Below, piece by piece: positions 3,833 to 53,532 of a stretch of DNA of 64,000 bases. Below the pieces are notes generated by a model, which ran no database searches, was not told the DNA's origin, and saw only the letters and a program-made list of their open reading frames with translations. This stretch comes from Scilla litardierei. Taxonomy: Eukaryota > Streptophyta > Magnoliopsida > Asparagales > Asparagaceae. The stretch covers positions 85,932,422 through 85,996,421 of the forward strand of contig CM061140.1 in assembly GCA_030789695.1 (NCBI GenBank), given 5' to 3'. The translations under genes and the position numbers were made by a program. Numbering within the stretch: position 1 is the first letter of the stretch; every line of letters begins with the position of its first letter.

Positions 3833-6600
3833 TGTAATGTCCCGCTTCCCAAAAGACACCGGAAGCGGAAACGTTACGAGGTCCGCATGAACTGGAGCGG
3901 TGAAGCTCGAGTTCAATGAGCATCCGTGATAATAACAACAAGGCAGGTCCTTGCATGCATTTCAAAACAATAAGAAACATTCATAAAATTTAACGCCACA
4001 TCCAAAAAAAATGTCCATACACGAAATAAAACGCAAAGGCCACAGAAAAGTACACTAAGCAAGGTGCTAAAAGTAAAACTAAAGAAAAGAGGCAACGAGG
4101 AAGGTCTCTAGTCCTCCGCAAGGAGAGATTCGGCGTCAACGGCGAACTCCTGGCTCTCTACGTCCGACGTCTCAAAAGGGTCCTCCTGGTAGTCCGGCTC
4201 CGGATTTGACATACATCCAAAAACATGAATGTATGTCCGCAAGGGTCTGCAAGTGAAGGTCAGAAACCCAAGGCAAGGTGTACAAAATAATATTGAATTA
4301 TGAAGCATTAATAGTTTTATACGAGATGTCAGCAACAAGTTTTTAAGTATGGCAGTTCTAAATGAAGTAAATTAAGTATTCTAACATGACAATTCTAAGC
4401 AGTTTAAGAAGTAAAGTAATGAGCATGGCATTTCTTTTGATTTATTAACATGGCAATTTAACTGAGACAACACTAGTAAATACAAGTTCCTTGTCAGTGT
4501 TTTCTATCTCTCATAGGCTTTACGCCTTTAAGTCGTGATGAGTGGATCGTTCTCCTCACGAGGGTTCTACCGTGATTGACGCTACCCCATCGCATGTGGG
4601 TGGTGATCTTGAAGAGAGGATCCCTTCATAGTCTTAGTGGCCGCTCAACCCTAACCCCACCTCAGATTTGTGCTGGAACACAAGCCAGCCTAGTCGACTC
4701 ACACGGTATCATGAAGTCACGATTTCGCCTTTGAGGCGCACAATTTCCCGATGTCTCTCATTAGTTAAACATGCCAAAAAATAATCAACCAATATACGCA
4801 CCAATTTAATAACATCAATATTTCTTTTGTACAATGTTTACAATAGTTAACAAGAATATTGAACAATATGTATGATAATTAAAAGAAACGTTGAACAGGT
4901 TGATTTATTGAACATGCTACAGATATTGATTTTCTTTGCCAATGTTTAAAACTAAAGCATATCAATTTATATGTCGATGGGTCACATTTTAAGTCTAGAA
5001 CCACAAGGTATTATTTTCATGCGTCATTTCACGTGTAGATTTCGAGTTATACAGCTTTAAATGAAAGTGACTATAAGAGCATCCAACTTCAAAAATTCAC
5101 AATAATTTGTACACTTGCTTGATTTCAGCGTTCTTGGTGTCGTTGGGTTCGTCTCGATGATTACTACGCTACGGTGAGATTGGTTAGTTGGTTTGATTAA
5201 ACATACATTTAGTTCAGGTCCTTTTCAATCATAACAAACGTTAAAATAATTCCTACTACGTCTAATTATCTGATTTTATTAAGTTTTCTACATTACGGTG
5301 TGGGTTAAAGATTAGCGATAGATTTACTAACTGTTTACACAGCAAAAGGGGCAGCAACGACGCGGTGAGGGGTAGTGACAGATCTGAACGGCTTCTAAGG
5401 CGTCTATGGACTTAGTACTCACCACGGAGGCGAGGGAATCTGCAAGCGGGATAAGGGGCGGCAGATCTGGCCGAGGAGGGTTGCAGCGCTTGGAGAAGAG
5501 GGCAGCGGTGGGTCTTAGTGTCCGAAGGAGGGTCTGGCAGCCTAGTGTAGGGCGTGGGAGATACCGGTGGCCTGGGGGAGGTGGCAGGCCGTGAGGGGAG
5601 GCTGGATGTAGGCTCAAGGGGGCGCGAGTTGGGTTTTTTGCAGGCAAATAAGATGCCCAGGGAGCTCTTCGGGTTGCGCACACAGAGGGGGATAGCCTGG
5701 GCACGGCTGAGCATGGACGAGGGCTGGGCAGCTCGGCCTGAGGGAAGGGACCGGATGGCAGGAAGCTGGGCGGTGGCCTGGGCGTGGGTGAGGGCTGGCC
5801 GCGAGCTTGAAAGGGAGGTAGTGGCTGTGAGTTGGTTGGCATGGAGAAGTGCGACTGTCGCTTAGAGAGCTGAAGGCCGAAGGTGATTTCAGGTTAAGGG
5901 GGGTGGTTGAGAGTAGGGGAGAAGAGAGCTTACGCTAGGGTTTATTGTAGAGGGGGCTAGGTTCCTCACGTGGGGGCTTAGCTTGGGGTTTACTTTACAG
6001 GCTGAGGTTCACTCACGCGAAGCCTTGGAGAAAATTGTAGGGTTTAGTTTATAATATTGGCAGGGGTTAGGTTTCTAGCTAGTATGTGAGCCTGGGGTCC
6101 TAGGGTTTATTTTGGTTCTCTTTGTAGAGTGGAGGTGGGGCCTAGGATGCGTGAGTGCAAAGGGGGGAGGCGGCAGAGTATGGGAAAAGCTAAGGTTTAT
6201 AAAAAATAGGAAAGGTTTAGCTTAACTTGGAAATGTTTTGAAATGGGGAAACATGGAAGTTAAAATCTATTTAATTGTAATTAAGGGGGATTTCATTGTT
6301 AATTAGGAGGAATAAAAGTCTCCCTAGCAAATAAGGAAATGATTTGGAAATTTGAATTCAAAAATTTGAAATGAATATTTTAAAGAATTTATTTAATTAG
6401 TAGAAAAAATAATTATTAGGTGAAAAGTATCATAGTAGGTTTAAAAATAATTCGGGCTAATACGTAATAAGGTTCGTAGCTGTTACGGGTACAAGTATAA
6501 TATGCCTAGTACTAACAGGTAATACAAATACGCAACAGATACGAATAAACGTACGACAAGAGAGAATACAAAAGAAGTGTATTAAAAACTGGCCGTTACT
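3833..6600 (-). repeat. 5' LTR of element C (about 2.77 kb)
   Basis: Plus-strand start TGTAATGTCCCGC at 3833; outer end near 6600 (minus AGTAACGGCC, first base altered from TG). Contains a GC-rich segment (about 5330-5870), a TATA-like stretch at 6196-6203, and the two exons of the LTR gene described separately. The 5330-5870 open frames have no conserved counterpart and I do not call them genes. Confidence 0.75.
4108..5190 (-). pseudogene. LTR-encoded spliced acidic gene, copy in LTR C
   Basis: Unrecognised gene. An open penultimate exon ends near 5119 at CAA|GCAAGTG, and a final exon runs 4205-4108, beginning PEPDYQED, strongly acidic and ending LLAED-stop. Splicing would be phase 1, and the intron (4206-5118) is 913 bp. 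Both exon-intron borders have G changed to A (CAA for CAG at the donor, CAA for CAG at the acceptor), so this copy is probably dead. The acceptor coincides with an inverted repeat, GACATACAT/ATGTATGTC (4208-4216, 4229-4237). Neighbour and sense are the same as gag of C. Compare the copies in D, E, I and J. Confidence 0.5.
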
Positions 6601-13026: not shown

Positions 13027-13271
13027 CAAAAACTGTCACGCCCCACTTCCCAAAAGATTGAGAAGCGAGACATGGCCAGCCCGCATGGACTCGAGCCGTT
13101 GAGGCTCGGGGTCCAATAAGCGTCTAGGCAAGTTATGATGCGGAGGAGAAAGTCCGATCGAACAATTTAGCATGAAACAACAGATATAGCAGCAAAAGAT
13201 ACTATTCAAAAGCAGAAGGTAACCAACAAAGAGTTTAACATAAAAGCTAAAACTGTACGTACCGGAGGCAA

Positions 13272-14345
13272 CTAAAGAAGAAAAAGTCTGCTGGGGTCCA
13301 CAGGTTGTGGCAGCTCGGTCAAGTCTGAGACATGTGCAAAACACATGTCAGCAACGAACTAATGAGACCATAATTAAAGCAGTTATACAATTCTAGCAGT
13401 TCTATATGGAATTTAAATGACAACTACACATGCAGTTCTAGAAAGCAGGAAATAAGTAATGGTTATTCTAATCGATCTGCTAGGGGTGTCCATCTAATCA
13501 GATCGTCTAAGAGTTGTTCATGTAGTTCTGTCAATCTGCCAGGGGTGTCCATCTGGTCAGATTGTCCAAGTCTAGAAAAAGGTCAAACGACCGGAATGCA
13601 TCCCTGCGAAGCAGACAGGAGTGCACCAACTGCGATACAAAGATAAAGCCTAAGGACTCAAGCTGCGTAGGCGGAGGGGAGCTACCCCCCAGGCCCAGCT
13701 AGACTCTTTTGTCCTACCCCACCCGCGAGTCGTTTGTGTTATGGACACGAGCCAACAAACGCTCCATCTAGACACGAGACAAGACAAGGATCACGAATTA
13801 TACGGCGTATCATACCGGAGCGCACCAGTCACGGGTGAGCCAAAGCTGGGGAGCACCAGTTCTCAATGGTCACCCCCGTTGTCGATCCGAAACAAATCAT
13901 TAATCATGAATGATACTACGTATCATACCGGAGCGCACCAGTCACGGGTGAGCCAAAGCTGGGGAGCACCAGTTCTCAATGGTCACCCCCGTCATCGATT
14001 AACTATCCGCAAGCGAGCCGTCTCTGGGCTAGCCAGCAGACGCTCCACAAGAGTAGTGCCAACCTCCGTATAGGAGAGGCCCACGCCTGTGATCTTCTAC
14101 AAGGATCCACACAATCAAAATTTCCGGCTTATTAATTAGCATGTGAGGTTTAAGTTGCATTTTAAAAGTGGGTTCGAGCAGAAAATAGCATGTGATCATT
14201 TTCAAGTATTTTGCAGAAATAAATCTAGCAGTTCTAACATCATTTCTAGAAAAGTATAAAAGCAGTAACTAAAGTCTCATTCCTTGCCTGGAAGATTCCA
14301 GCAAGGATGTAGTCCAGCAGGGTCTGGGTCAACCAACGGATCTAC
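13272..14345 (-). pseudogene. LTR-encoded spliced gene, copy in LTR D
   Basis: Penultimate open exon ends at 14288 with CCAG|GCAAGG. The intron 13325-14287 (963 bp) ends TCTCAG, and a short final exon 13324-13272 reads LTELPQPVDP to a stop. Phase 1 joining keeps the frame. The final exon is shorter and much less acidic than in C, E, I and J, so it may be decayed. The donor lies in an inverted repeat (CTTGC-TGGAA/TTCCA-GCAAG with one bulge). The acceptor ends an inverted repeat (13325-13336 with 13342-13351). Function unknown. Confidence 0.45.
13800..14005 (-). repeat. Two tandem copies (about 120 bp period) within the LTR D intron
   Basis: ATACCGGAGCGCACCAGTCA...GGTCACCCCCGT occurs twice (13808 onward and 13923 onward), nearly identical over about 75 bp. 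Confidence 0.85.
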
Positions 14346-16687
14346 GGAACCTGTACGATAATCCTATCATCACAATCATGCACTCTAACATCCACAGGCA
14401 ATGACAGAAGATAAGCCAGATTAACTGGGCCCGTTTTGGGTCACCAGCCTACAGTTCCGTATTCATTATCTTCAATTAGTGAAATAACCAGCACAATAAA
14501 TTTACCGTTTTTATCTTGTTAACATGCGGTGTGGGTTCCTACGGAGAGAGACTTACCTCAACACGATGCGAGAGCTACTTGATGTTGGGTGGCGACGTCA
14601 GGGGTTGGACTCGGTCAGCGTGCACGGTACGGAATGATAGGTACTCTGAGATAAAACACGTGCACTAATAAGTTTGTAACGATGGTCAAGAATTATTAGG
14701 CAGACCTAAAACGTCTAATGATCCGATTCTTAACAAGTTTTCTGTCCTACGATGGTTTCATAACAATATTAAAGAGCGTTAAATAACTAACATGTTATTT
14801 ACATCCAGCTGCTAATACAAATAAGCATACAATAATATATCAAGCAACCTAGGCTATCATTAGCTAGAAGTAGCGTACAAAAATCATCAACCCTACGAAT
14901 TGTCAAATTAACATCTACATTAATGTTATTAGCATGCAAAACAACATTTCTATTAAGCTACAAACTTGTTGGCTAAGATGAACCTACTGAATATACATAT
15001 GCATATAGTTCTCAATATTATAACTTTAAGATAAATCTGTGACCAATTTTTAACATATCACATTATAAAAACTTTTAATACTATACTTCTATAGTGATTA
15101 TAACCCTCAAACTGTTCACATGGCTCACCCTAACATGATAATAGATATTCTTAATAATTGGAACTTAACAACAGAGACTAACAGCTTAACATGACATCCC
15201 ACTTCATTAATACTTCACAGGCAAACCCTAAAACGTAGACACTAACATCACAAAAACTAACTCAACACAATATCTACTAACCTTACACAAGCTTCTCCTC
15301 GCTTTTGCGGTTGCAGGTGGACACGAAGGCGGCTGCGGGGGCTACTCACGGCGACAGGGGGCACGGCGGCGACGGCGGCGACGGTTACGGCCGTCGTTGC
15401 TGCTGCTGCTGCAAAAATCGTCGGAAACAGCGGCGCCTGGGTGATTTGCAGCGGTCTACGGCGGAGCTCCGGCGTACAGCAGCGAGCTAGGCGGCCGGGG
15501 TCACGTCGGGGATGAGGTCGGGCATTGGGAGATGGCCGCGGGCGCACGTACAGGCGACGGGAAGCTACTGTGGGTCGAGCGGTTCCTGTCGTGCAGTTGG
15601 CGGCGAAGTCGGGGCTTGCGGCGGCGCAAGCGGCGGGGCAACGTCGGAGGGGGTCGGGTATTGAGGCAGGGAGGTCCGGCGATGGCTACGGGGCTATCGG
15701 CGGCGAGCTTTGCAGCGGCCTAGGGGTGCGTGCGAGACCATCAACAGGCTCACGAGAGCTTCAGGTCGAAGAACAGGGCTCTGCGGGCTTGCGCTGGGCG
15801 GCGAACTCCGACGAGGGGGTCCGATCGCCGGTGCTGGTGATGGTGCACGCGAGGTGAAGGGTAGGAGCGGCGTTGCGGGGTAGAGGTTGTGGGTTTCTTG
15901 TTGTGCGAAGACGGCGTGCGAGGGTTTCTCAAGAGGTGGCGGCTGCGGTTCGATGCTGTGAAAACTTTTAGAGTTAGGGTTTAAAATATACTAACCCTAA
16001 GGCTATAAGGTAAGGTAGGTAGCTGTAAAACGTGGGCTTTAGTAGGTGACGTGGGTAGGCTTTCAGTTATAGGAATGAAGTTATAATGAATTGTTTTAAA
16101 ACTATTTAAAAAAAACTCAAACTCCCTATGTTCATCTACAAGGCTAAGACTAGGGTTTGCATGTGCGGTACGTGCACGTGCATCGATGCATGGGTCCGGG
16201 GCATGCACAGAGCTCCGAGACACCCAAGTGCACATGCGTGCGGGGTTGGTTGGGTCCGTTTACGCTGATACAGCGGAAAACGCCGTATCAGATCAATACG
16301 CGTGATACTGCCGAGATACGCGTTCTGTTCGCGCATGCGGGGTCTCACTGGTCTACGGGGGTCGCCTACGGGTTCCTGGCACAAATACAGTCATGTGCGT
16401 GAGGTTCGTCCCAGAATCGCCCGTCGATTTGCGTGTATATAGTGTGTCGTTCAAACGGTCGGTGCATAAAGCAATTCCAGTGTGAACGAGGTGTTGGCTT
16501 GGGTTGACACGTGTTCCCAAGTCGGACACGAGTCACGGAGGATATCTATAGGTTCAAGCAAGGTTCTAGGGTCCTACTGCGTGCACAGACGACATCTGCT
16601 ATGCACACAGACCAAATTACTTAACACACAGACCTAATAGCTGTGCACACACAAAATTCAAATTTGGCCCGAAAACAGGCCGTTACA

Positions 16688-18243
16688 AGGCGATGGCCCA
16701 ATATCCGTCTGACTACAGAGGATGCAGATAGGTGACGGCCCAATACCCGCCCTCTCAAAGACCTCCGGGGTAGTTTGCCATCCAAACCGGAGCGATAATG
16801 CGGGGAGGCAACGCCCAATACCCGTCCGATTACAGAGGATGCGGGGAGGCGACAGCCCAATACCTGCCTTGAAAAAGACCTCCGGGGCAGTTCTCCATCC
16901 AAACCGGAGTGACAAATACAGAGAGGCAAAAGCCCAATACTCATCCGATTACAGAGGATGCGGGAAGGTGACGGCCCAATACCCGCCCTCTCAAAGACCT
17001 CCGCCACAGTTTGCCATCCAAACCAGAGTGAAAATGCGGGGAGGCAATGGCCCAATACCCGTCCAACTACAGAGGATGCGAGGAAGCGACGTACCAATAC
17101 CCGTCCGACTACAGAGGATGCGAGGAGGCGACGACCCAATACCCGCCCTCTCAAAGATTTCCGGGGCAGTTCGCCATCCAAACTAGAGTGACAAATGCGG
17201 AGAGGCGATGGTCCAATACCCGTCCAATTACAGAGGGTGCGGGGAGGCAACGGCCTAATACATGCCCTCTCAAAGACCTCTAAGGCAGTTTGCCATCCAA
17301 ACCGGAGTGACAAATGCGGGGAGGCGATGGCCCAATACCCCTCCGAATACAGAGGATGCGGGGAGGCGACGGCCCAATGCCCGCCCTCTCAAAGACCTCC
17401 GAGGTAGTTCGCCATACAAACCAGAGTGATAAATGCAGGGAGGCAATGGCCCAATACCCATCTGACTACAGAGGATGCGGGAAGGCGACGGCCCAATACC
17501 CGCCCTCTCAAAGACCTCCGAGGCAGTTCGCCATCCAAACCGAAGTGATAAATGCAGGGAGGCAACGGCCCAATACCCGTCCGATTACAGAGGATGTGGG
17601 GAGGCGATGCCCTAATACCATCCATCTCAAAGACCTCCGGGGCAGTTCGCCGTCCAAACCGGAGTGATAAATGCGAGGATGCAACGGCCAATACCCGTCC
17701 GACTATAGAGGATGCGAGGAGGCGACGACCCAATACCCGCCCTCTTAAAGGCCTCTGGGGATGTTCTCCATCAAAACTGGAGTGATAAATGTGGGGAGGT
17801 GACAGCCCAATACCCGTCCGATTAGAGAGGATGCGGGGAGGCGACGGCCCAATACCTGCCCTCTCAAAGACCTCCAGTACAGTTCGCCATCCAAACTGGA
17901 GTGAAAATGCGGGGAGGCGACGGCCCAACACCCGTCCAACTACAAAGGATGTGGGGATGTGACGGCCCAATATCCGCCCTCTCAATGACCTCTGTGTCTG
18001 TTCGCCATCCAAACCAGAGTAATAAAAATGGGGTCGGCTAACGGCCCATCTATACCCGCACCCTTGAAGACCTCTGGTGTAGTTTGCCATCCCAACCGAA
18101 GTTATAATGCAGGGCCGGCTACGGCCCATCTATACCCACTCTAATGAAGACCTCCAGGACAGTTCTCCATGCAAACCGAATTTATAAATGTGGGGCCGGC
18201 TACGATCCATCTATAGCTACACTCTTAAAGACCTCCAGGGCAG
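16688..18243 (+). repeat. Tandem array in the 3' UTR of element F, right part
   Basis: About 13 units of the same roughly 120-bp repeat as 10275-12180, resuming in mid-unit after element D. The last units (about 18020-18243) switch to the shorter type with GGCTACGGCCCATCTATACC, mirroring the left edge. Confidence 0.9.
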
Positions 18244-36374: not shown

Positions 36375-37500
36375 CTAAAAAGACCTCAAGGTCTGGTCCT
36401 CGTCAGGTACATACTCTGGTGACGACGTCCTCGGCTCCACGTACTCCAATAAGTCTGCCTCGTCCACAAACTCTGGCTGAACACCTGACGTACAGCACCC
36501 AAGAGAAAGGAACTGTACATCAGGTAAAGTCTACAAGAAGGGTTAGACATTACTGCAAGTGCACCGAACTTTAAACAACGGTTTACTGGTTGATTAGCAT
36601 GCTGAGGTTCTATTACACAACAGTTTACTGGTTGATTAGCATGCTGTGGTTATGACAGAGTAACACAACAGGAAGTAACACAGCAGGAAAGTAAAACGGG
36701 ACAAGTAGTAGTAGTAGTAGCGTGTGCTACCAGCTACGGGACTAACCTACAGGTGTCATGACAAGTCGGGACGTGACGGGAACAAGACGGGACAAGACAA
36801 GGCAAGACAAGTGAGACACGAAAAGGGTTCACGCCTTACGATTCGAGGGGGATCAGACCCTCTTGCCATGCGCATGCTCAACCCAACCCCAAACCCAGGA
36901 ACTCAGGACAAGATTTACAGGGATCATTTCCGCTAGGGAAACATCCGAAACGCCCGAAGGCTTTTTGTGTAACAGGGATCACTTCCGCTAGGAAAGCATC
37001 CGAAACGCCCGAAGGCTTTTTGTGTAACAGGGATCACTTCCGCAAGGAAAGCATCCGAAACGCCCGAAGGCTTTTTGGGTAACAGGGATCACTTCCGCTA
37101 GGAAAGCATCCGAAACGCCCGAAGGCTTTTTGGGTAACAGGGATCACTTCCGCTAGGAAAGCATCCGATACGCTCGAAGGCTTTTTGTGTAACGGGACAC
37201 GACATGACAAGTGTAGGGAGTTGTTATTCTAGGGTGTCCACACGCATGCACACACATGATAGCCCTACAATATCAAAAGTTGTTGTTGTCAGGCTCAGAC
37301 TTCGTCGTCAAGTCTGAGCCGTCGGGAGTCGTCCCGGACGCTATCATTTCACGTCCGGTTCTATTTGTTCACAGTTAACAATTCTAACCAACTAGGGCCT
37401 AAGCACGGCCAAAAGTGCAAGTGGATACACTTGCCTGCGGTGGCAAGTGTGTCGTCCGTCCGGGGCGTCTCGTCCAATCGTCGTGTCCGTGGAAGTCCGT
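36375..37500 (-). CDS. LTR-encoded spliced acidic gene, copy in LTR E
   Basis: Unrecognised gene on the element's sense strand. A 66-bp exon (37500-37435) lies between TTTCAG| and CCGCAG|GCAAGTG. A 950-bp intron (37434-36485) ends ACGTCAG. The last exon (36484-36375) reads QPEFVDEADLLEYVEP, continues acidic and ends LRSF-stop. Joining is phase 1. Against element J, the 66-bp exon has no indel and 13 differences, 8 of them at third codon positions in this frame and only 4 changing the residue, which argues for coding constraint. The acceptor is the last base of an inverted repeat (36485-36495 with 36513-36523). The upstream exon and start codon are not resolved. Confidence 0.5.
36924..37195 (-). 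repeat. Hairpin-forming tandem array (five units of about 55 bp) in the LTR E intron
   Basis: Each unit on the minus strand has AAAAAGCCTTCGGGCGTTTC (a GCC-TTCG-GGC tetraloop hairpin) and then GGATGCTTTCC...GGAAGTGATCC, a second inverted repeat. Homologous to 43796-44082 in element J. Confidence 0.85.
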
Positions 37501-38122
37501 CTGAAATATCGCCACGGCGATGGTGTCAGGTCGCGTTTTCAGTAAATCCTATTTAGGTTCATTTCTAGGTTGTCGTGACTACCCTAATTGTCAAAGTCAC
37601 AATTTTGATGTTTAGCCCTATTCGACGATTCTATCCTATGTGCACAGTCAAAAGGTCCAGTCGTCAAATCTACTGTTTCACAACGTTTTAAGGGTGCAGA
37701 AAAATAAATTTAGTTACAGTTGGCCGATTTTAGTTAGGTTTTCAGTTTCGCTACGGTGTGGGTTGTGCTACGAGTTAGGGGTACCAACTTGAATGATGTT
37801 CACACGTAAATCTGGCGTCGCGTCTGAAAATAGTGGCGGTGCTCGTGTCCCCGACTGCGGGTAGCGCAGTGGAGGTCGTCGCGGGATCGCCTCAGGATTG
37901 TAACGGCTGCGGGTAGTGCAGCGAAACGGCACGGCAACGGGAACGGCGTCAGAACCGCCTTGGTCGCGAGCAGTGCAAAGAAGCGGCAACGGAATCGCCT
38001 CGGTTGCGGGTAGCGCAACGAGACGGCATGAGAACGGTAGCGGTAACGGCCACAATGTCTAGAGAGTGTTCAGCCATTCAAACAATGTTTGCCAAATTTG
38101 CAACCGGACAGCTGCTACATCA

Positions 38123-38560
38123 TCATTCTTGAGCTCCAACGACCCAAAGTTCATCTCTCCCTAATAACTCAGTAATCCCATTAGCCGCTGACTCTCTCAC
38201 CAAAGGATAAAGATCAGTCGAACGTCCTAAAAATACTCTCAGCATAAGCTCCGACCTCAACAATATACTATTCTTCACCAAAACATCAGCAATCCTGGAC
38301 CGAGCTGACACAATCGAGCTCGAAGGCAAGCAAGTCCACAACTTCCTCACTGAGCACAGGGCATTCCCTTAGGGAATCGAGAACGGCGATCGGGGTCTCA
38401 CGGGGAAGGTGGCGGAACGGCGAGAAGCGTAGCACAGCGGCGGCGGTACGGGCTCGAACGGCGGCGGAGCACTCAGAGGGCTGCCGTGAGGGCCGCAGAT
38501 CGCGGAGGGGACGCGCTGAGCGAGGCAGTACGCGCTGCAGATGGGGCGTTGCGATGGTGT
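38123..38560 (-). pseudogene. Possible captured host-gene fragment (HEAT-like helices) in LTR E
   Basis: The minus strand reads RFSPFRHLPRETPIAVLDSL...VVDLLAFELD to about 38300, then in a shifted frame RIADVLVKNSILLRSELMLR and VRESAANGITELLGRDELWV. The alternating amphipathic helices with VRESA-type loops resemble a HEAT-repeat protein. Neither homologous LTRs C, D, I or J nor any retrotransposon protein I know has it. The source gene is not identified. Confidence 0.35.
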
Positions 38561-39989: not shown

Positions 39990-41599
39990 TGTAACGACCA
40001 CTTTTCGTTGTACGTTGTTCGTGCACGTGCTTTTGGCCGTGCACGTGTTTATTTTAGACTTTGTTTGTTTGTGAACACTTTGTTGTGATACGCTGTTGTG
40101 AACGTCTCTGAGAGTAGTAAATTGTGGCACTAATTTGGAACGACATTTCCCGAGTCGTTTTCCCACGATTTGATCGTATTCGATGAGACGTTGCGATTTT
40201 CACTTTTGACGGGAGACGTTTCTATTTTTAGTTTCGTCGTCCGACATCGAAACTGAGATCCTTCCTCTTAGTTATCTTTCTTTTGTCGCCACGATCATCC
40301 CGATATTTATTTTATAATTTTTGGAGTTTATTTGACCACATTTACATTTTTTACAAAGCTTTAAATATTTTTAATAGCTACGTTTTAAATTATTTTCGGT
40401 CAAATAAAATTTATTTAAGTTTAAAATGTTTTAAATAATTTTTGAGCCAAATCTTAGCCCCTATCTTGGCCGCACCCAATCCTTATGTGATTAGGAGAGG
40501 TAGATTTGAATTTTAAATATTTTTAAACTCCTAATCCCATTAGGATTAGCCCTAGACCAAGTCAACCCCTCTACACTATATAAACAACCCCTAGGAAGAC
40601 CTATTTTCACAAGAAAATAACCCTAGCCGCTTCCAAAACCCAAATTCACGCTTGCGACGATTCGTCGCAACGTTGCTGCACCAACCCCCGCACCGACCGA
40701 AGGAATCACCCCCAAATCCCCGCACCGACCGAAGCCCCCGCCCGCACCAAGCTCCGTCCACACCGCTGCAGTCGCCCGCTCGCATCTCTGTGTCCGACCG
40801 AGAGGATCTCTCGGTCAGACCGAGAGATTTCCCCGATCCGCACCGCACCCGTACCGTTGCAAGCCCCTGTTCCGCACCCCGCATCGCCCCGCTCCTGTCG
40901 CCCGCTCCGCAGCGTGCCTGACCGAGGCGCCTGCCTGCACCGACCGAAGCCCGCTCTGTTGCAACGTTGCAAACATTGCAACGCCCCGCCCAAGCGCCCG
41001 ACCGGCGCTGTCGCCCGCATCGACCGAAGAAACCCTCCGCACCCGCTGATGTGACCGACCCGCTGTGCTGCACCGCCCCGTTCTCCCGCACCGACCGAGC
41101 AAAACCCCCGCACCGACTGTGTTCGACTGAGAGCCAATCGTCGCAACCCCGCATCCGTCATACCGCTTGCCACTGTGGGCCCCCCAAGTTCTCCAGAGGT
41201 ATTGTGGGTCCCCTATTGGTCCCTAGGACTAATGTGGGCCCCACCTAGGAGCTTTCTCTCCGACGATTTGCCGCGTACGATGTTGCGATATGTCGTAGCC
41301 CATCGTCGCACGTGCTAGCTTTGGAATCTGGATTCGTTGCTCCGGTTGCTGCTCTGAACTTTGTAGCGAGGAATCTATTTTAGAATCAGGACTTGGAGCG
41401 CGTTCTTTTATTCCAACCCCTGGCGTCGCTACCTGATGCCAGTGTAGCTTTCGCGTCGTGTTGAGGTAACGCTTTGCACCCCTAGGACCCCCAACCTATT
41501 GCATGCTAATCAAGACTAAAATCAATGTTTTTAAAGTATTTTAAATGTTTTAGAATTCACTAATCAAGATTAATAAAACGGATGTAGGCCGGTGGACTT

Positions 41600-41663
41600 G
41601 TGCACGTAGGATATTGTGACTTTGGACTCGTTGGACGGTGTTTCTCTGACGTGATACTTGCAG
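41600..41663 (+). CDS. LTR-encoded spliced gene in LTR I, penultimate exon (3' part)
   Basis: Open frame ending DVILA plus one base at CTTGCAG|GCAAGTG. The GC-type donor and phase match LTRs J and E. The final exon lies at 53087-53187. The 5' limit of this exon is not determined. Confidence 0.4.
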
Positions 41664-41738
41664 GCAAGTGAAACTTGTCAACTCTTGTGTAGAGCCATGT
41701 TTTTAGGACACTTCCTTGTTTTTTAAGCGTAAAAGAGA

Positions 41739-41805
41739 CTAGACAGTGAAATGATAGCTGTCTAGACGCAACTTTAGGGTCTAGCTTGACAACGAAGCTA
41801 GATCC
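41739..41805 (+). other. Two hairpins with conserved loops in the LTR I intron
   Basis: CTAGACAG-TGAAATGATAG-CTGTCTAG (41739-41765) and GGTCTAGCTT-GACAACG-AAGCTAGATCC (41778-41805). The loops match those in J and E (43629-43694, 37292-37358), but both stem arms differ. Confidence 0.75.
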
Positions 41806-41965
41806 GTTGCCCTGCCATGTCATGCATGCATTGATATCTATCACGTTTAAATTCCTTATCTGTACGCACTTTTAACTGCCATGCATTGCATTCTACATAT
41901 CATCCAAGTTGATTGTTGCATTCGTAGCACACGCTACAATACATGTACTTCCTTGACCGGCTAGG

Positions 41966-41970
41966 TGCAC
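41966..41970 (+). other. Target-site duplication of element J, left copy
   Basis: TGCAC, repeated at 52665-52669. Confidence 0.95.
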
Positions 41971-42449
41971 TGTAACGGTCGGTTTCCGATCGTAAGTTCT
42001 TTGTGCACGTGCGCTTGACCGTGCACGTATTTATTTTAGACTTTGTTTGCTTCCGAACACTATCGTGTGATATGTCGTTGTGACTCTCTTTGAGGGTACT
42101 ACGTTTGCTGTGTTGACTTGCAACGTCATTTCACGGGCCGTTCGCCCACGATTTGACCTTTTCCGAGGAGACGTCGCGTATCGCACTTTTGCCTTGAGGC
42201 GTTTTTATTTTTAATTTCGTTTCTCGACATCGAAATTGTAATCCGTCTCTTCCGACTTCTTGCTCTCGTCGCCCCGGTCGCCCCGGTATTTTTCTTATAA
42301 TTTTTGGGCACCGTTTGACCCTTGTGCGCTAGTAGACCCCGTTAATTACGAGATTACCCCTAACAAACTTAACCCTATTAAACCCTAGATAACCCTAATA
42401 GGCTGCCCATCACGTGTAGCACCTCCCTTAGTCACATGGGCCCCACCCC

Positions 42450-42455
42450 TATAAG
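42450..42455 (+). promoter_or_regulatory. TATA box of LTR J (5' copy)
   Basis: CCCCTATAAGAAAACCCTAA. Repeated at about 50224 in the 3' LTR. It places about 2.4 kb of LTR in the transcribed leader. Confidence 0.65.
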
Positions 42456-43487
42456 AAAACCCTAACTTTCTCTAAAAATTTCACAGCCGCAACTCATTGC
42501 TTTTGCGCCGGCCCTAGGAGAAACCCTACCCACGCAAAACCCTATCCCCCTCCACCTGAGCCCACGCCGGAGGCCGTCGTCGCCGCCGACCTACTCCCCG
42601 ACCTCCCCTCTCTCGCCTGTGAGCCGAGCCGCCATCGGAGATCGCCGTTAGCCGTCGGAAGCCGTCGGAATCGTGCGTAGCAGCAGCAGCAGCTCGCCAC
42701 GGCCGCCGCCTGCCGCTGCCGTCGCCGCCAGAGCCTCCTCGCCGTCGCCGTGAACCCCCCTCTGCCCCCTCTCGCTGTTGGCTGCGACCCAAGGCCGCAA
42801 CTTCTCTGAAACAGCGAGTTTGCTCGCTGTTTTGCGTGTTTGACGCCGTACCGACACGTCGCCAAGATCCCGCCGTCTCTCCTCACTGTTGGAGCTCTCC
42901 GGCAGCCTCCTACACCTTCTGGGAGTATTCATCGACGTCACGAACTCTTCCTACGACTCCCGACGTCGTAGGCGTTTGGTACGACGAACCGTTCATCTCG
43001 GTTTTCGTTGCAAGTTCTCCGGAAGCCGTAGTACGCCTACCCGATGCACTGCTCGCTGTTCACGCGTCCCGCTCGCTACCAGAACGTGTCTGGCTATGTT
43101 GCCCGTAGCTGAGACACTGCTAGGAGACGATCCGTAGCCGTGCCAGTCAAATCGGTCGCCGTTCAGACACTACGTCCGCTCTACCCCAGACTCCGGACAG
43201 GTTGGTTCCCCTATCTCGTAGCGAAACCCCCACAGTAGCAAAACTGAAAACCTAACTAAAACCGGCAACTTAACTCAGTAAATTTATTTTCTGCTCTCTT
43301 AAATCGATGTGTAACCGTAGACCGACGTTTGGACTTTTGACTGTGCACAAAGGATAGAATCGTCGGATAGGCTGATTGGACGACTTGACTCGTGACGGTT
43401 AGGGTAGCCACGCCTAACTTAGAAATGAACCTAAATAGGGTTTGACAAAAATCGCAACTTGACACCGTCGCCGTGATCTCTTTTCAG

Positions 43488-44556
43488 ACGGACTACCGTG
43501 GACGCGACGACTGGACGAGACGCCCCGAACAGACGACGCACTCGCTATTCCAGGCAAGTGTACCCACTTGCGATTTGACTGTGCTTTAGTTCTAGTTTGT
43601 AGAACTGTTAGATTGTGTGTGATGAGAACCGGACGTGAAATGATAGCGTCCGGGACGACCCGTGACGGCTCAGACTTGACGACGAAGTCTGAGCTTGACA
43701 ACAATGAACTGCTGACAACATAGGACTATCTTGTGCGTGCGTGCGTGTGGACACCCTAGAATAACTTTCCCTACACTTGTCATGTCATGTCCTGTTACAC
43801 AAAAAGCCTTCGGGCTTTTCGGATGCTTCCCTTCGCGGAAGTGATCCCTGTTACACAAAAAGCCTTCGGGCGTTTCGGATGCTTCCCTTGCGGAAGTGAT
43901 CCCTGTTACTAAAAAAAAGCCTTCGGGCGTTTCGGATGCTTCCCTCCGCGGAAGTGATCCCTGTTATACAAAAAGCCTACGGGTGTTTCAGATGCTCTCC
44001 ATGCGAGAGTGATCCCCGTGACTGTTATACAAAAAGCCTTCGGGCGTTTCGGATGTTTCCCTAGCGGAAATGATCCATGTAATTCTTGTCCTGAGTTCCT
44101 GGGTTTGGGGTTGGGTTGAGCGTGCGCACGGCAAGAGGGTCTGATCCCCCTCGAACCGTAAGGCGTGAACCCTTTCGTGTCTTACTTGTCCTGTCCCGTC
44201 TTGTCTTGTCCTGTCCGTCACGTCCCGTCTTGTCTTAACACCTGTAGGATAGTCCCGTAGTCGGTAGCACACGCTACGTCTACTGCTTGCTACGTTTACT
44301 TTTCCTGCTACGCTACTTTTCGTTACTCAGTTATAACCCCAGCATGCTAAAACAACCAGTAAATCATTGTTAAAAGGTTATACACTTGCAGTAGAGTCTG
44401 ACAGTTTGTGTAGACTTTGCCTGACGTACAGTTTCCTTCTTTTGGTGCTGTACGTCAGGTGTGGAGCCAGAGTACGAGTACGAGACGGACCTGCCAGTTG
44501 ACTTGGAGCCGGAGGGCGCTGATCCGGTGTACGATCCAGAGGACGATCAGAGTTAG
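43488..44556 (+). CDS. LTR-encoded spliced acidic gene, copy in 5' LTR of element J
   Basis: Unrecognised gene, same sense as gag. Exon 43488-43553 follows CTCTTTTCAG| and ends ATTCCAG|GCAAGTG. The GC-AG intron is 43554-44458 (905 bp), and the last exon 44459-44556 reads VEPEYEYETDLPVDLEPEG and ends EDDQS-stop: net strongly acidic, no hydrophobic segment. Phase 1. A candidate earlier GT-AG intron (43201-43487, donor GGACAG|GTTGGT) joins in frame to an Arg-rich open stretch ending PRLRT. In this copy a TGA lies upstream where the 3' LTR has CGA. AATAAA follows the stop by about 170 bp. The region could act as its own small gene or as an upstream ORF of the genomic RNA. Confidence 0.5.
43629..43694 (+). 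other. Two hairpins with conserved loops in the LTR J intron
   Basis: CCGGACG-TGAAATGATAG-CGTCCGG (43629-43653) and GCTCAGACTT-GACGACG-AAGTCTGAGC (43668-43694), both perfect. Same pair in E (37334-37358, 37292-37320); loops conserved with new stems in I. Confidence 0.8.
43796..44082 (+). repeat. Hairpin-forming tandem array (five units of about 57 bp) in the LTR J intron
   Basis: Units carry AAAAAGCCTTCGGGCGTTTC and then a stem such as CTTCC...GGAAG. Variant units read CTCTC...GAGAG and TTTCC...GGAAA, so both arms change together. The same array lies at 51570-51855 in the 3' LTR. Confidence 0.9.
44421..44458 (+). other. Inverted repeat ending at the 3' splice site of the LTR intron
   Basis: CTGACGTACAG (44421-44431), 16-base loop, CTGTACGTCAG (44448-44458), where the final AG is the acceptor. 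Equivalent structures with other stem sequences are in C, D, E and I. Confidence 0.8.
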
Positions 44557-44903
44557 AGATCTTCTGTTGTTGTTCCAGAGTTATCCATTTCAGTTTGAGT
44601 TAGGTGCGTTGCACTCTTATTTTCTCGTCTAGGTTGGGTGCTTGCACCATTAGTTTCCCTTTCAGCAGTTGAAGCCGTTTACGGCATTGTTAGACTCTCA
44701 GTACTTTGATGATAAATTTTGGAATAAAATGAAATGTTTCTTTTCAGTACTTTTGTTATTTCGTACTAACTTGCAGGGACCTGTACTTTCGCTATGGAAA
44801 ACTACAGACGCTTATTGGGTCTGGGCTCTTAGCCCCGGCCTAAGCGGGCATTCGTCACGCTTCGCCTCCGTGTTTTTGGGAAGCGGGGCGTGACAGGTTT
44901 TAG

Positions 44904-44919
44904 TGGTGGCCCATGCAGG
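44904..44919 (+). other. Primer-binding site of element J (tRNA-Ile-like)
   Basis: TGGTGGCCCATGCAGG, eight bases after the LTR end. Confidence 0.7.
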
Positions 44920-45021
44920 TCCCCTCTTCTACGAGTACGGAATAATTGAAGTATTAAATTTCATTTTATTATTATCACCCGGAAATTGTTCGAGTCTAAT
45001 CTGTGTCCTTCTGTCAATAGG

Positions 45022-46168
45022 ATGGCAGGATGACGTGTTACCCGATCGGGGAGCTCTGGAGATGGGATTCAGGAAGACCAGAGCGAAGAATTCCGTCAGG
45101 TTCTGGGCGTGATGAGAGAGATGCTGGAGGTGCAGCATCAGTTGGTTCAGCAGTCCCAGCGTGCTGCCCAGGCTGCTCCAGTTGCACCACCGCCACCTCC
45201 ACCTGCCCCTCGAGCTGCTCCAGGGGTGAAGCAGTTCAACGAGCTCCAGCCGAGGACATTTTCAGGGAAGGAGGGACCCCTAGCTGCTGACGAGTGGATC
45301 CAGAGCACGGAGGAGAAGTTGGTTGCTGCGAAGATTTCGGACGATACCCGAGTGGAGATAGCAAAGATGCAGCTGACGGAGAATGCGAGGAACTGGTGGC
45401 GCCTTGAGGAGAGGCGTCTGGAGAAGCCGGTGGATTGGAAGATTTTCAGGTCTATGTTCAGGACGAAGTATTTCACCAAGACTACTAGGAGGGAGCTGCT
45501 GAGCAGGTTTATAGATCTGAAGCAGGAGAACAAGACCGTCGAGGAGTATGAGGCAGAGTTTGAGATGCTGAGTCGCTTTGCTCCGTATATGGTGAAGAAG
45601 GAGGAGAAGCGAGCTGATCGCTTCCGACGGGGACTGCGTCCGAAGATTCAGGCTTCTATGTCTTCGGCGAGTTTCACGACTATGAGGGAGGTGCTGGATG
45701 CTGCGAAGAATCATCAGCTTATTTCACTCCTACCTGACCCTCCAGCTGATAAGGGGAAGCGTCCTATGGAGCAGTACCGGCCACCTGCTAGGCCGGCAAT
45801 GAGGCCAGTTCAGACAGTACCATTTAAGAGGCCTGGAGCACCCATTCAGAGTCAGAGCAAGGGACCGTGTCATTACTGTGGGAAGCTGGGACACGTTCAG
45901 AATGATTGTCGGAAGAAGATGGGACTGGGCCTAGTTTGCGGAGATGCTTCGCATGCTGCGAAGGATTGTCCGAGAGCCCGTCATGCTGTAGATGGAGCGC
46001 CAGCCCCGCTGCAGATGAGAGCGCCCGCTCCAGTTCAGAGAGGACCTGCCGTTCGTGGACCACCCTTGGCGCCACAGAGGCAGATGTTTCAGAGAGCAGC
46101 GCAGCCCCAGAGGCCGGCTTACACCATGACGGCTTTGGAGACTGAGGAGCTGGATGGAGTCATTGCAG
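45022..46168 (+). pseudogene. gag of element J (Tekay-type)
   Basis: Structural protein of the element. The ATG at 45022 is placed by homology with C and I; codon 4 is TGA where a CGA arginine is expected, and the next in-frame ATG is 45109. A proline/glutamine-rich N-terminus precedes the gag core (FNELQPRTFSGKEGPLAADEW, KMQLTENARNWW, KTTRRELLSRFIDL) and a CCHC knuckle CHYCGKLGHVQNDC (about 45869). The second knuckle has lost its first Cys (LVCGDASHAAKDC). The exon ends VIAG at 46168. Unspliced, translation runs 12 codons into the intron and stops at 46206, giving Gag alone. Confidence 0.85.
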
Positions 46169-46285
46169 GTAACTCATTGATTCTAGTCTTTCATTTCATA
46201 GTTTAGCTTTTAAATTGTTAGTCTTGCTTGCCTGACTTGTTTGTTAGAGTAGCTTGGTTTGACCGTAGTTCTTTTAATATCTTAG
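46169..46285 (+). other. Candidate intron at the gag-pol junction of element J (117 bp)
   Basis: GCAG|GTAACTC...TATCTTAG|GCACC, T-rich, phase 1. Removal joins VIAG to TILVSSHPA, the normal uninterrupted reading at the start of protease. Homologous to 54769-54883 in I. Confidence 0.8.
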
Positions 46286-49743: not shown

Positions 49744-52664
49744 TGTAACGGTCGGTTTCCGATCGTAAGTTCTTTATGCACGTGCGCTTGACCGTGCACG
49801 TATTTATTTTAGACTTTGTTTGCTTCCGAACCCTATCGTGTGATATGTCGTTGTAACTCTCTCTGAGGGTACTACGTTTGCCGTGTTGACTTGCAACGTC
49901 ATTTCACGGGCCGTTCGCCCACGATTTGTCATTTTCCGAGGAGACGTCGCGTATCGCACTTTTGACTTAAGGCGTTTTTATTTTTAATTTCGTTTCTCGA
50001 CATCGAAATTGTAATCCGTCTCTTCCGGCTTCTTGCTCTCGTCGCCCCGGTCGCCCCGGTATTTTTCTTATAATTTTTGGGCACCGTTTGACCCTTGTGC
50101 GCTAGTAGACCCTGTTAATTACGAGATTACCCCTAACAAACTTAACCCTATTAAACCCTAGCTAACCCTAATAGGCAGCCCATCACGTGTAGCACCTCCC
50201 CTTAGTCACGTGGGCCCCACCCCTATAAGAAAATCCTAACTTTCTCTAAAAATTTCACAGCCGCAACTCATTGCTTTTGCGCCGGCCCTAGGAGAAACCC
50301 TACCCACGCAAAACCCTATCCCCCTCCACCTAAGCCCATGCCGGAGGCGGCCGCCACCGCCGACCTACTCCCCGACCTCCACTCTCTCGCTTGTGAGCCG
50401 AGCCGCCGCCGGAGATCGCCGTTAACCGCCGGAAGCCGCCGGAATCACGCGCAGCAGCAGCAGCTCACCACAGCCGCCGCCGCCGCTGCCGCCGCCGCCG
50501 GAGCCTCCTCGCCGTCTCCGTGAACCCCCCTCTGCCCCCTCTCGCTGTTGGCTGCGACCCAAGGCCGCAACTTCTCTGAAACAGCGAGTTTGCTCGCTGT
50601 TTTGCGTGTTTGACGCTGTACCGACACGTCGCCAAGATCCTGCCATCTCTCCTCGCTGTTGGAGCTCTCCGGCAGCCTACTACACCTTCTGGGAGTATTC
50701 ATCGACGTCACGAACTCTTCCTACGACTCCCGACGTCGTAGGCGTTGGGTACGACGAATCGTTCATCTCGGTTGTCGTTGCAAGTTCTCCGGAAGCCATA
50801 GTACGCCTACCCGACGCACTGCTCGCTGTTCACGCGTCCCGCTCGCTACCAGAACGTGTCTGGCTACGCTGCTCGTAGCCGAGACACCGCTAGGAGACGA
50901 TCCGTAGCCGTGCCAGTCAGATCGGTCGCCGTTCAGACACTACGTCCGCTCTACCCCAGACTCCGGACAGGTTGGTTCCCCTATCTCGTAGCGAAACCCC
51001 CACAGTAGCAAAACTGAAAACCTAACTAAAACCGGCAACTTAACTCAGTAAATTTATTTTCTGCTCTCTTAAATCGATGTGTAACCGTAGACCGACGTTT
51101 GGACTTTTGACTGTGCACATAGGATAGAATCGTCGGATAGGCTGGTCGGACTACTTGACTCGTGACGGTTAGGGTAGCCACGCCTAACTTAGAAATGAAC
51201 CTAAATAGGGTTTGACAAAAATCGCGACTTGACACCGTCGCCGTGATCTCTTTTCAGACGGACTACCGCGAACGCGACGACTGGACGAGACGCCCCGAAC
51301 AGACGACGCACTCGCTATTCCAGGCAAGTGTACCCACTTGTGATTTGACTGTGCTTTAGTTCTAGTTTGTAGAACTGTTAGATTGTGTGTGATGAGAACC
51401 GGACGTGAAATGATAGCGTCCGGGACGACCCGTGACGGCTCAGACTTGACGACGAAGTCTGAGCCTGACAACAATGAACTGCTGACAACGTAGGACTATC
51501 TTGTGTGTGCGTGCGTGTGGACACCCTAGAATAACTTTCCCTACACTTGTCATGTCGTGTCCTATTACACAAAAAGCCTTCGGGCGTTTCGGATGCTTCC
51601 CTTCATGGAAGTGATCCCTGTTACACAAAAAGCCTTCGGGCGTTTCGAATGCTTCCCTTGCGGAAGTGATCCCTGTTACTAAAAAAAAGCCTTCGGGCGT
51701 TTCGGATGCTTCCCTCCGCGGAAGTGATTCTGTTATACAAAAAGCCTACGGGCGTTTCGGATGCTCTCCATGCGAGAGTGATCCCCGTGACTGTTATACA
51801 AAAAGCCTTCGGGCGTTTCGGATGTTTCTCTAGCGGAAATGATCCCTGTAAATCTTGTCCTGAGTTCCTGGGTTTGGGGTTGGGTTGAGCGTGCGCACGG
51901 CAAGAGGGTCTGATCCCCCTTGAACCGTAAGGCGTGAACCCTTTCGTGTCTTACTTGTCCTTTCCCGTCTTGTCTTGTCCTGTCCGTCACGTCCCGTCTT
52001 GTCTTGACACCTGTAGGATAGTCCCGTAGTCGGTAGCACACGCTACGTCTACTGCTTGCTACGTTTACTTTTCCTGCTACGCTACTTTTCGTTACTCAGT
52101 TATAACCCTAGCATGCTAAAACAACCAGTAAATCATTGTTAAAAGTTGATACACTTGCAGTAGAGTCTGACAGTTTGTGTAGACTTTGCCTAACGTACAG
52201 TTTCCTTCTTTTGGTGCTGTACGTCAGGTGTGGAGCCAGAGTACGAGTACGAGACAGACCTGCCAGTTGACTTGGAGCCGGAGGGCGCTGATCCGGTGTA
52301 CGATCCAGAGGACGATCAGAGTTAGAGATCTTCTGTTGCTGTTCCAGAGTTATCCATTTCAGTTTGAGTTGGGTGCATTGCACTCTTATTTTCTCGTCTA
52401 GGTTGGGTGCTTGCACCATTAGTTTCCCTTTCAGCAGTTGTAGCCGTTTACGGCATTGTTAGACTCTCAGTACTTTGATGATAAATTTTGGAATAAAATG
52501 AAATGTTTCTTTTCAGTACTTTTGTTATTTCGTACTAACTTGCAGGGACCTGTACTTTCGCTATGGAAAACTACAGACGCTTATTGGTTCTGGGCTCTTA
52601 GCCCCGGCCTAAGCGGGCCTTCGTCACGCTTCGCCTCCGTGTTTTTGGGAAGCGGGGCGTGACA
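49744..52664 (+). repeat. 3' LTR of element J (2921 bp)
   Basis: Colinear with 41971-44895. Ends GCGTGACA before TSD TGCAC (52665-52669). Confidence 0.95.
51258..52325 (+). CDS. LTR-encoded spliced acidic gene, copy in 3' LTR of element J
   Basis: Exons 51258-51323 (66 bp) and 52228-52325 (98 bp), intron 51324-52227 with the same CAG|GCAAGTG donor and ACGTCAG acceptor. The last exon is the same length as in the 5' LTR. The upstream open stretch keeps CGA where the 5' LTR copy has TGA, so this copy is less damaged. One base of the acceptor stem differs (CTAACGTACAG). Confidence 0.5.
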
Positions 52665-52669
52665 TGCAC
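52665..52669 (+). other. Target-site duplication of element J, right copy
   Basis: TGCAC, matching 41966-41970. Confidence 0.95.
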
Positions 52670-53532
52670 CCCTATGCCATCATGATAAAACACTTCCTGG
52701 CTCGTGATCCAGAAGCGGGCCTCATGTGTTGGTCAAAAGCCATTGCCCGATACACGTGGAGGGGTAGGGATAAGCGATCACTTGAGCTTAGGAGTTGGCC
52801 CGCGCAGCCACTCTAGCCAGAAGGCGTAATCTCTGTGCACGAGGTGCTTACTTGACTTGTACTTGTCTTTGTGAATGGTTCATGTAAATCTTGTCATCCA
52901 TGACATGTTTAAATGCCATGCTCGTACTTTACTTTACTTGTTGCACTCTTACTTTAACTGCCATGTCATTGCATCATGCTAGAACTGCTAGGTTGCTTTA
53001 CTTTTACCTACTTTCAATTTCCTTGCACAAGTCTCTTGTAGACTTGCTGACATGTGCCCCTTGCTCTTTTGGATGTCACATGTTAGACCCTGAGCCAGAC
53101 ACCGTAGCTAAGGACGAGGTGTTTCCTGACGCTGAGCCAGAGCCTACTTTTGACGAGGAGTTGGTGGACACCAGAGACCAGTCTTAGAGACTGATTTTAG
53201 TTGCTTTTGTTTTAGGTTGCTGTTAGTTGTCGGTGCTTAGCACCATTACTTTGCTTTTGTACTTTGTACTTTTGTTGGCCATGCTGGGGCCTCTTTTAGA
53301 CTCTTTTCTTTTAGCCTGGTGGCTTTTCTGCGATGTTGGAATTTATAATTATGGATATTCTGATATTTATCTTTTGTCTCATTTCCTTATTATTATCTTT
53401 GTTTCGTTTCACGTTGCAAGGACCTGCAGTTAAAGTTAATTGACGCTTATCGGACTTGCAGCTTTGTAGCTTCAAGTCTGAGCGGACCTTCTCACGCTTC
53501 ACCTCCACGTTTTTGGGAAGCGAGGCGTGACA
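52670..53532 (+). repeat. 5' LTR of element I, second part
   Basis: Continues the LTR interrupted by element J and ends GAGGCGTGACA at 53532, followed by the primer-binding site. Confidence 0.85.
53087..53187 (+). CDS. LTR-encoded spliced acidic gene in LTR I, last exon
   Basis: After CACATGTTAG| the frame reads PEPDTVAKDEVFPDAEPEPT and ends TRDQS-stop, strongly acidic and of the same length class as in J (which ends EDDQS). Phase 1 from the donor at 41663. The intron would be about 724 bp without J. The acceptor is the last base of an inverted repeat, CTGACATGTG (53047-53056) with CACATGTTAG (53077-53086), containing one G-U pair. J's insertion inside the intron would disrupt the gene in this copy. 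Confidence 0.45.

Follow-up and report, generated by a model that had tools for sequence, protein, structure and literature searches.

The exon and intron structure of retrotransposon long terminal repeats (LTRs) was evaluated in the window, that is, the whole stretch of 64,000 nucleotides of Scilla litardierei DNA (contig label G000:C11, from a plant genome of 3.68 Gb). The central copy, called the J element, was bounded by LTR J on its 5' side and by LTR K as the 3' mate, and it was inserted into LTR I. Its interior matched the Pfam families Retrotrans_gag, RVP_2, RVT_1, RT_RNaseH and Integrase_H2C2, together with a weak rve, in the gypsy gene order. The Chromo match in the element was also weak (E=3.3e-5, 24.2 bits, slightly under the cutoff of 25.1), the gag copy had an early stop, and pol ended about 40 nt upstream of the 3' LTR. 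LTRs E, D and C lay on the minus strand and belonged to families other than that of J. The pattern of LTR end and primer site gave 46,200 genome matches at no more than 3 mismatches, and the reversed control gave 0.

A preliminary description of the window had proposed that LTRs C, D, E, I and J, which it ascribed to Tekay-type elements, each held a small spliced gene with an open exon, an intron and a short, mostly acidic last exon. The five LTRs were recovered with their coordinates (Table 1). The donors were likewise found, namely CAG/GCAAGT in E, I and J, CAG/GCAAGG in D and CAA/GCAAGT in C (the slash marks the exon boundary), and so were the AG acceptors, changed to AA in C. The intron measured 905 bp in J, 950 bp in E, 729 bp in I, 963 bp in D and about 905 bp in C, and the phase 1 joining held. 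The last exon was acidic in every one of the five LTRs except D. Moreover, J and E differed at 13 positions across the 66-bp exon (exon 2 below), with no indel. Within the window, exon 2 as delimited was open in all five LTRs; elsewhere, its frame was interrupted by stops in many I-type LTRs, to which the claim of an open exon did not extend. What survived of the proposed gene was its splicing, supported by copies that had lost introns, and its constrained acidic last exon. A stand-alone gene did not survive, as there was no leading ATG and the exons were purged of ATG.

Splicing within the LTR

Splice sites were compared in two sets of LTRs. The J-family alignment comprised 38 LTRs chosen by their match to exon 2, so the conservation of exon 2 among these copies is biased. 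The exon 2 donor CCAG/GCAAGTG and the AG acceptor of exon 2 were retained in 38/38 of these LTRs, the exon 3 acceptor AG in 31/32 and GGAATAAAAT in 31/31. The unselected sample consisted of the first 30 places on C1, taken by the exact motif of the LTR end and primer-binding site (PBS) only. AGGCAAG was present in 28 of these 30 LTRs, and an exon 3 acceptor motif was present in 26 (motifs of the J, I and C types were searched). Hence, the pattern is more than chance.

Copies without the introns were found in the genome. The exon 2/exon 3 junction pattern of the I-type families matched 4 places genome-wide, 3 of them exactly, with 0 matches for the reversed-pattern control; the fourth place, with 3 mismatches, was set aside. 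Two exact junctions, C9:56117713 (3' LTR) and C9:56124195 (5' LTR with PBS), were about 6.5 kb apart and belonged to one element, both LTRs of which lacked the GC-AG intron and retained intron 1 (CTCTCG/GTAAGG...CATAGCAG/). The third exact junction lay in an LTR at C11:181399774, in which introns 1 and 2 were both missing by comparison with the C9 element. Furthermore, gag was joined to pro without an intron at 36 genomic places, 16 of them mismatch-free (reversed control, 0); the count is of genomic places. At the five places inspected, gag and pro sequence stood on the two sides of the junction. The gag-pro intron was 117 nt long in J, 115 nt in I and 111-119 nt in 16 other loci. Because exact intron-loss copies exist, splicing of the LTR at the predicted sites is judged to be real; some copies have lost intron 1, intron 2 or the gag-pro intron at the named sites. 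These copies support at least three introns, two of them within the LTR, in one very abundant lineage of the 3.7-Gb genome.

The intron-less LTRs L090-L092, from two lineages, are natural reverse-transcription products of spliced RNA, and they are useful for marking the times at which splicing coincided with packaging. In U5, the stretch GTACTAAC (window 44763-44776) was identical in 31/31 J-family copies. It was followed by TTGCAG in J, where the two together read as a textbook branch site and acceptor.

The ATG-poor leader and the frame of exon 3

The ATG counts were taken from the 30 of 38 J-family copies that had all exons. The density was 0.87/kb in exons 1-3 versus 13.4/kb in the introns. 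Other words were not depleted in the exons (AGT 11.3, GAT 9.1, GTA 12.3, TAG 11.2, TGA 7.4 and CAT 5.7 per kb). Fifteen of the 30 copies were free of ATG over about 950 exon nt, compared with 4.5 expected. No ATG site in the exons was common to at least 5 copies; such sites lay in intron 1, in intron 2, past 44708 and, in two cases, in U3. When E, I, D and C were pooled, the exons had 13 ATG versus 39 CAT and the introns had 115 versus 101 (Fisher p=0.0003), with exon limits set by us and a 326-bp insert in E (9 ATGs) excluded. The purge of ATG from exons 1-3 is evident in these genomic copies, and such a purge is expected where ribosomes scan a leader up to the start codon of gag. The gag ATG itself stood 0-1 base past a good acceptor. 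It was directly behind an AG acceptor in 10/10 J-family copies with the start in view, and in 12/12 unselected loci (of 30) whose longest open reading frame (ORF) was the gag start. We infer that exon 3 is spliced to the gag exon in the leader, with TAG/GT at 44633 as the likely donor.

The same exons were evaluated as coding sequence. Exon 1 was rejected in this role, with a mean of 3.1 stops in frame versus 3.8 and 6.4 in the other frames. The ratio of nonsynonymous to synonymous substitution rates (dN/dS) of exon 2 was 0.76 (bootstrap 0.48-1.23; ten J/E-type rows, including one 69-nt variant out of register). The preliminary description had named a dN/dS near 1 over the two exons as an argument against the gene; such a value is possible for exon 2, whereas exon 3 was well below it (0.22-0.30). 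Among the 26 loci with an acceptor motif, 22 had an open frame (as set by the acceptor) that terminated at a common stop position, mostly as ...DQS or ...DQT; L054, L070 and L071 were broken, and L076 ran past the stop place. The dN/dS of this acidic frame was 0.30 for 17 I-type sequences (95% 0.19-0.48) and 0.22 for 6 J-type sequences (0.11-0.40), compared with 0.5-1.6 in the other frames. With fewer representatives, the values were 0.29 (I-type) and 0.18 (J-type). E, C, L053, L054, L070, L071 and L076 were excluded because their length was too different or they were broken, and adding L053 across the first 8 codons only gave 0.50. These ratios indicate purifying selection on a conserved acidic exon 3 in different families, with protein constraint in one frame. 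Exon 3 as a purely noncoding leader was dropped, since the cross-family dN/dS contradicts it. The translation of exons 2 and 3 had no candidate match among 5.8 billion proteins.

A coding partner for exon 3 was sought among the donors of the element. In the 4.85-kb interior of J, the gag donor alone scored at least 8, and it was in phase 1 (our own weights; one degraded copy). Phase 1, which exon 3 requires, was found in J and in 12 of 16 measured loci. Counting from the ATG gave a different phase in I and in the remaining four loci, a result expected of frameshifted copies. GT stood at the gag donor in 23 of 25 aligned rows, and three rows (L070, L071 and L076) were not gag-like downstream. 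This conservation and the 36 intron-less junctions point to a functional donor at the gag end, as in a short Gag of the BARE1 or EVD type. Exon 3 is probably added to Gag through this phase-1 donor, and the predicted tails are ...LDGVIAGVEPEYEYE...DQS in J and ...DEVIADPEPDTVAK...DQS in I. A retained gag-pro intron would give short, mutually dissimilar tails, which makes a conserved alternative end plausible.

Hairpins in the GC-AG intron

Two hairpins lay about 75 bases past the GC donor, with the forms stem-GAAATGATA-stem and stem-GACRACG-stem. Folding compared with shuffles gave z values of -5.0 for J, -3.7 for I and -6.2 for E, and of -0.1 for D and 1.6 for C. A model (R2) built from six J/E-type sequences matched 27 of 30 LTRs sampled without regard to hairpins (E<0.001) and four window copies. 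Among 28 distinct rows, two-sided changes occurred in 15 of 17 pairs (12.0 in shuffles), and 95.8% of cells were paired (13-53% when slid). The covariation value was 0.690, versus 0.285 shuffled and no more than 0.123 slid. The hairpins covary among these genomic copies; the alignment was fitted to the model, so structure is somewhat favoured. The donor of J can also pair with the bases that follow it (GCAAGTG-TACC-CACTTGC). Lying inside intron 2, the structured element would be confined to intron-retaining RNA, as in packaging signals of the retroviral type, and its position suggests that the hairpins may be a packaging, dimerisation or export element of the unspliced RNA. In human immunodeficiency virus type 1 (HIV-1), the packaging hairpins lie just past the major donor and are thus present in unspliced RNA only, and nef overlaps the LTR. 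The J element resembles HIV-1 in having hairpins past the first donor and coding sequence overlapping the LTR, and differs in lineage, loops and stems.

A search of LTR J against Rfam gave three weak matches, all on the minus strand and below the gathering score, which were disregarded. In viral contigs, the hairpin pattern occurred 9 times but never with the matching stems, and these occurrences were attributed to chance; a scan of these contigs based on reverse transcriptase gave no match. The loop-A pattern at no more than 2 mismatches occurred 26 times within the window versus 22.1 by chance, with no excess.

Further features were noted in intron 2. Tandem units of about 55-60 bp (window 43791-44083 and 37196-36917) included a short segment that is self-complementary and reads AAAGCCTTCGGGCTTT in the first unit of J. 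A G-rich block, GGGTTTGGGGTTGGGTTGAGC, and the sequence downstream of it (window 44091-44190) ranked with the most conserved segments of the LTR, with a J-E divergence of 0.04; G-rich words resembling the GGGTTTGGGGTTGGGTTGAGC block were seen by eye in C, D and I.

Proposed use of the LTR exons at both transcript ends

In the proposed mechanism, the R region of these chromodomain-type Ty3/gypsy LTRs would be an exon set serving the transcript at its two ends. Transcription would start past the TATA box, and the exons 1-3 of the 5' LTR would be joined, with removal of the GT-AG and GC-AG introns, into an ATG-poor leader. This leader would finally be spliced to the gag exon, with the gag ATG at base 1 or 2, and ribosomes would scan to gag. 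The double hairpin and the primer site would fall in the introns, as would the poly(A) signal of the 5' LTR and the unwanted ATGs. Hence, the unspliced RNA would retain the sequences required for replication, and the spliced RNA those required for translation. The 3' LTR would contribute its exon 3 as an alternative last exon, placed just before the poly(A) signal. The phase-1 gag donor, normally joined to pro, would be joined instead to exon 3, giving Gag an acidic tail ending in DQS. Such a Gag isoform with an LTR-encoded tail, which we infer by analogy with the short Gag of BARE1 and EVD, may help the element separate translated RNA from copied RNA. The whole model, with a split leader at the 5' end and exon 3 as the last exon of a Gag isoform, is considered fairly probable on the evidence of genomic DNA. 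A more specific form is tentative, at somewhat less than an even chance: the double-duty exon set (purged leader and last exon of a tailed Gag) would be combined with a weak GC-AG intron whose two-hairpin switch decides between translation and packaging.

Several results weigh against this model. Hairpins were looked for in LTRs C and D and were not found, and the further pair types in the hairpin alignment numbered 27 versus 25.8 in shuffles (174 of 500 shuffles reached 27). At least two lineages without intron 2 were reverse transcribed, so the hairpins are not strictly needed for copying, or helpers supply the function. A genome search for the J-type exon 2/exon 3 junction gave 0 matches. 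The gag/exon 3 junction, searched in the genome with an I-type pattern, returned 37 places, all of them reading as internal exon 3 sequence; since copies of the junction were not found there, the join remains a prediction. Within the J family, the dN/dS of exon 3 gave no clear constraint, the changes being too few. Exon 1 of LTR E was ATG-poor only with the 326-bp insert excluded. Moreover, an in-frame ATG 7 nt upstream of the exon 3 boundary in I-type LTRs permits an unspliced mini-ORF.

The other explanations were weighed against the same evidence. Exon 3 might be a short ORF read from its own start in unspliced RNA (MLDPEPE... in I-type LTRs, MSNPEPD... in C), unrelated to the leader exons. 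CATGTTAG stood in frame just upstream in 16 I-type loci (located partly by motif, which biases the count), and LTR C had an in-frame ATG TCA AAT. However, the same constrained frame occurs in J/E-type LTRs, where ACG, ACC or ACA stands in the position of the ATG. The feature common to the LTRs is the AG boundary, to which splicing has occurred, and I-type LTRs have further out-of-frame ATGs slightly upstream; an own start is regarded as unlikely. The real splicing of exons 1-2-3 and the open stretch upstream of the junction, up to 149 codons in some J-family copies, would also suit a small autonomous LTR gene made of exon 1 or 2 and exon 3. Such a gene requires a start codon in frame with the LTR exons, but 34 of 36 J-family copies had no ATG in the open stretch leading into exons 2 and 3. 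With the ATG purge, an exon 1 frame in which stops were not clearly fewer than in one other frame, and the dN/dS and I-type stops of exon 2, the autonomous gene is highly improbable.

Phase-1 joining requires only some coding donor, and pol ends close to the 3' LTR, so exon 3 could be read as an acidic tail on the integrase or chromodomain at the end of Pol. The pol of J had no donor scoring at least 8, a weak point that comes from one degraded copy, and we regard this join as quite improbable. The acidic frame could further be a by-product of a purine-rich splicing enhancer, without a protein, as the purine fraction of exon 3 was 0.54-0.61 versus 0.31-0.46 in the flanks (J, E, I and C). The upper limits of dN/dS in the acidic frame were nevertheless below 0.5 in two groups, and the stop was at the same place, which leaves the by-product very doubtful.

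The model of a split leader and a tailed Gag was compared with known systems, as far as the available parts of the sources describe them. In EVADE (EVD), a Ty1/copia element of Arabidopsis, a spliced, prematurely ended shGAG RNA makes extra Gag, and the unspliced RNA makes Gag-Pol and is retained in the nucleus (PMC8892269). The likeness is the spliced subgenomic RNA for Gag, which is a prediction for the J element. EVD is a copia element with an early end inside the element, whereas the last exon proposed here is LTR-borne and precedes the normal poly(A) site; moreover, the 5' leader here is split by LTR introns, unlike that of EVD. In the barley Ty1/copia element BARE1, splicing at the gag end separates the RNA pools for translation and replication; its 104-nt intron creates a stop, and neither an LTR exon nor LTR introns are described in the available text (PMC3735527). 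In Ogre (Ty3/gypsy), intron removal allows the full polyprotein (PMC6317226, PMC12786077). The Ogre intron lies after protease (PMC6317226), whereas the intron here lies between gag and protease, with more introns in the LTR. Spliced RNAs encoding Gag are also reported for LTR elements of sunflower and triticale; the sole Ty3/gypsy GAG RNA of the triticale set is intron-less, and LTR exons are not described in the available sections (PMC7730604, PMC7765848). The phrases "in the LTR", "within the LTR" and "inside the LTR" were absent from a review on the extra ORFs of plant LTR retrotransposons (PMC7264820), and no description of LTR introns was found in searches of an open-licence library.

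If true, the model would give plant Ty3/gypsy elements a splicing economy like that of retroviruses, as well as a protein domain encoded in the LTR. It would give a concrete, testable answer to how RNA is divided between translation and replication, and the covarying RNA element is a testable candidate for a packaging or export signal. Furthermore, a coding exon hidden in an LTR is easily overlooked by annotation. The positions of the features are given in Table 1.

Table 1. Positions of the LTRs, exons, introns and RNA elements in the window.
Feature	Positions	Strand	Remarks
LTR J	41971..44895	+	5' LTR of nested element; U3 end near TATA box at 42449
LTR K	49744..52664	+	3' mate of LTR J; 96.8% identity to J over 2926 columns
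LTR I	39990-41970 plus 52665-53532	+	two parts, interrupted by J element
LTR E	39793-36088	-	
LTR D	ends at 13034	-	
LTR C	ends at 3833	-	
Exon 1, LTR J	42480..43200	+	5' end placed from TATA; 3' end CAG/GTTGG; noncoding leader, ATG-poor
Intron 1, LTR J	43201..43487	+	GT-AG; counterpart missing in L092 compared with L090
Exon 2, LTR J	43488..43553	+	66 bp; leader exon without detected coding constraint
Intron 2, LTR J	43554..44458	+	GC-AG; holds hairpins, tandem repeats, many ATGs; counterpart missing in L090, L091, L092
Two covarying hairpins, LTR J	43626..43697	+	loops GAAATGATA and GACRACG
Exon 3 coding part, LTR J	44459..44556	+	acidic frame VEPEYEYE...DQS, then stop; phase 1 junction
Exon 3 remainder, LTR J	44557..44632	+	ends at candidate donor TAG/GT (31/31 copies); boundary putative
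Poly(A) signal region, LTR J	44718..44730	+	TTTGGAATAAAAT; identical in 31/31 J-family copies having the region
Primer-binding region	44896..44919	+	GGTTTTAGTGGTGGCCCATGCAGG; within putative intron 3
gag exon, J	45021..46168	+	starts 1 base 5' of ATG (45022), after acceptor GTCAATAG; ends at phase-1 donor CAG/GTAACT
gag-pro intron, J	46169..46285	+	117 nt, phase 1; intron-less junctions in related families, 36 genomic places
Exon 3 in 3' LTR	52228..52325	+	placed by offset 7769 from J; putative terminal exon of Gag isoform
Exon 2, LTR I	41610..41663	+	donor CAG/GCAAGT
Hairpin pair, LTR I	41737..41807	+	loops as in J, stems different
Exon 3, LTR I	53087..53187	+	PEPDTVAKDEVF...DQS, then stop
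Exon 2, LTR E	37435..37500	-	
Hairpin pair, LTR E	37290..37361	-	
Exon 3, LTR E	36376..36484	-	
Exon 2, LTR D	14288..14350	-	donor CAG/GCAAGG
Exon 3, LTR D	13276..13324	-	not acidic
Exon 3, LTR C	4111..4207	-	acidic; acceptor AA

Two further observations concerned the minus-strand LTRs. Two arrays of a tandem repeat of about 119 bp lay near LTR D (window 10436-12180 and 16688-18058). Within exon 1 of LTR E, part of the translation of the insert (window 38060-38385, minus strand) was weakly similar to a HEAT repeat, cohesin-associated (Pfam E=0.0097, under the cutoff), and the insert is possibly a captured host gene fragment.
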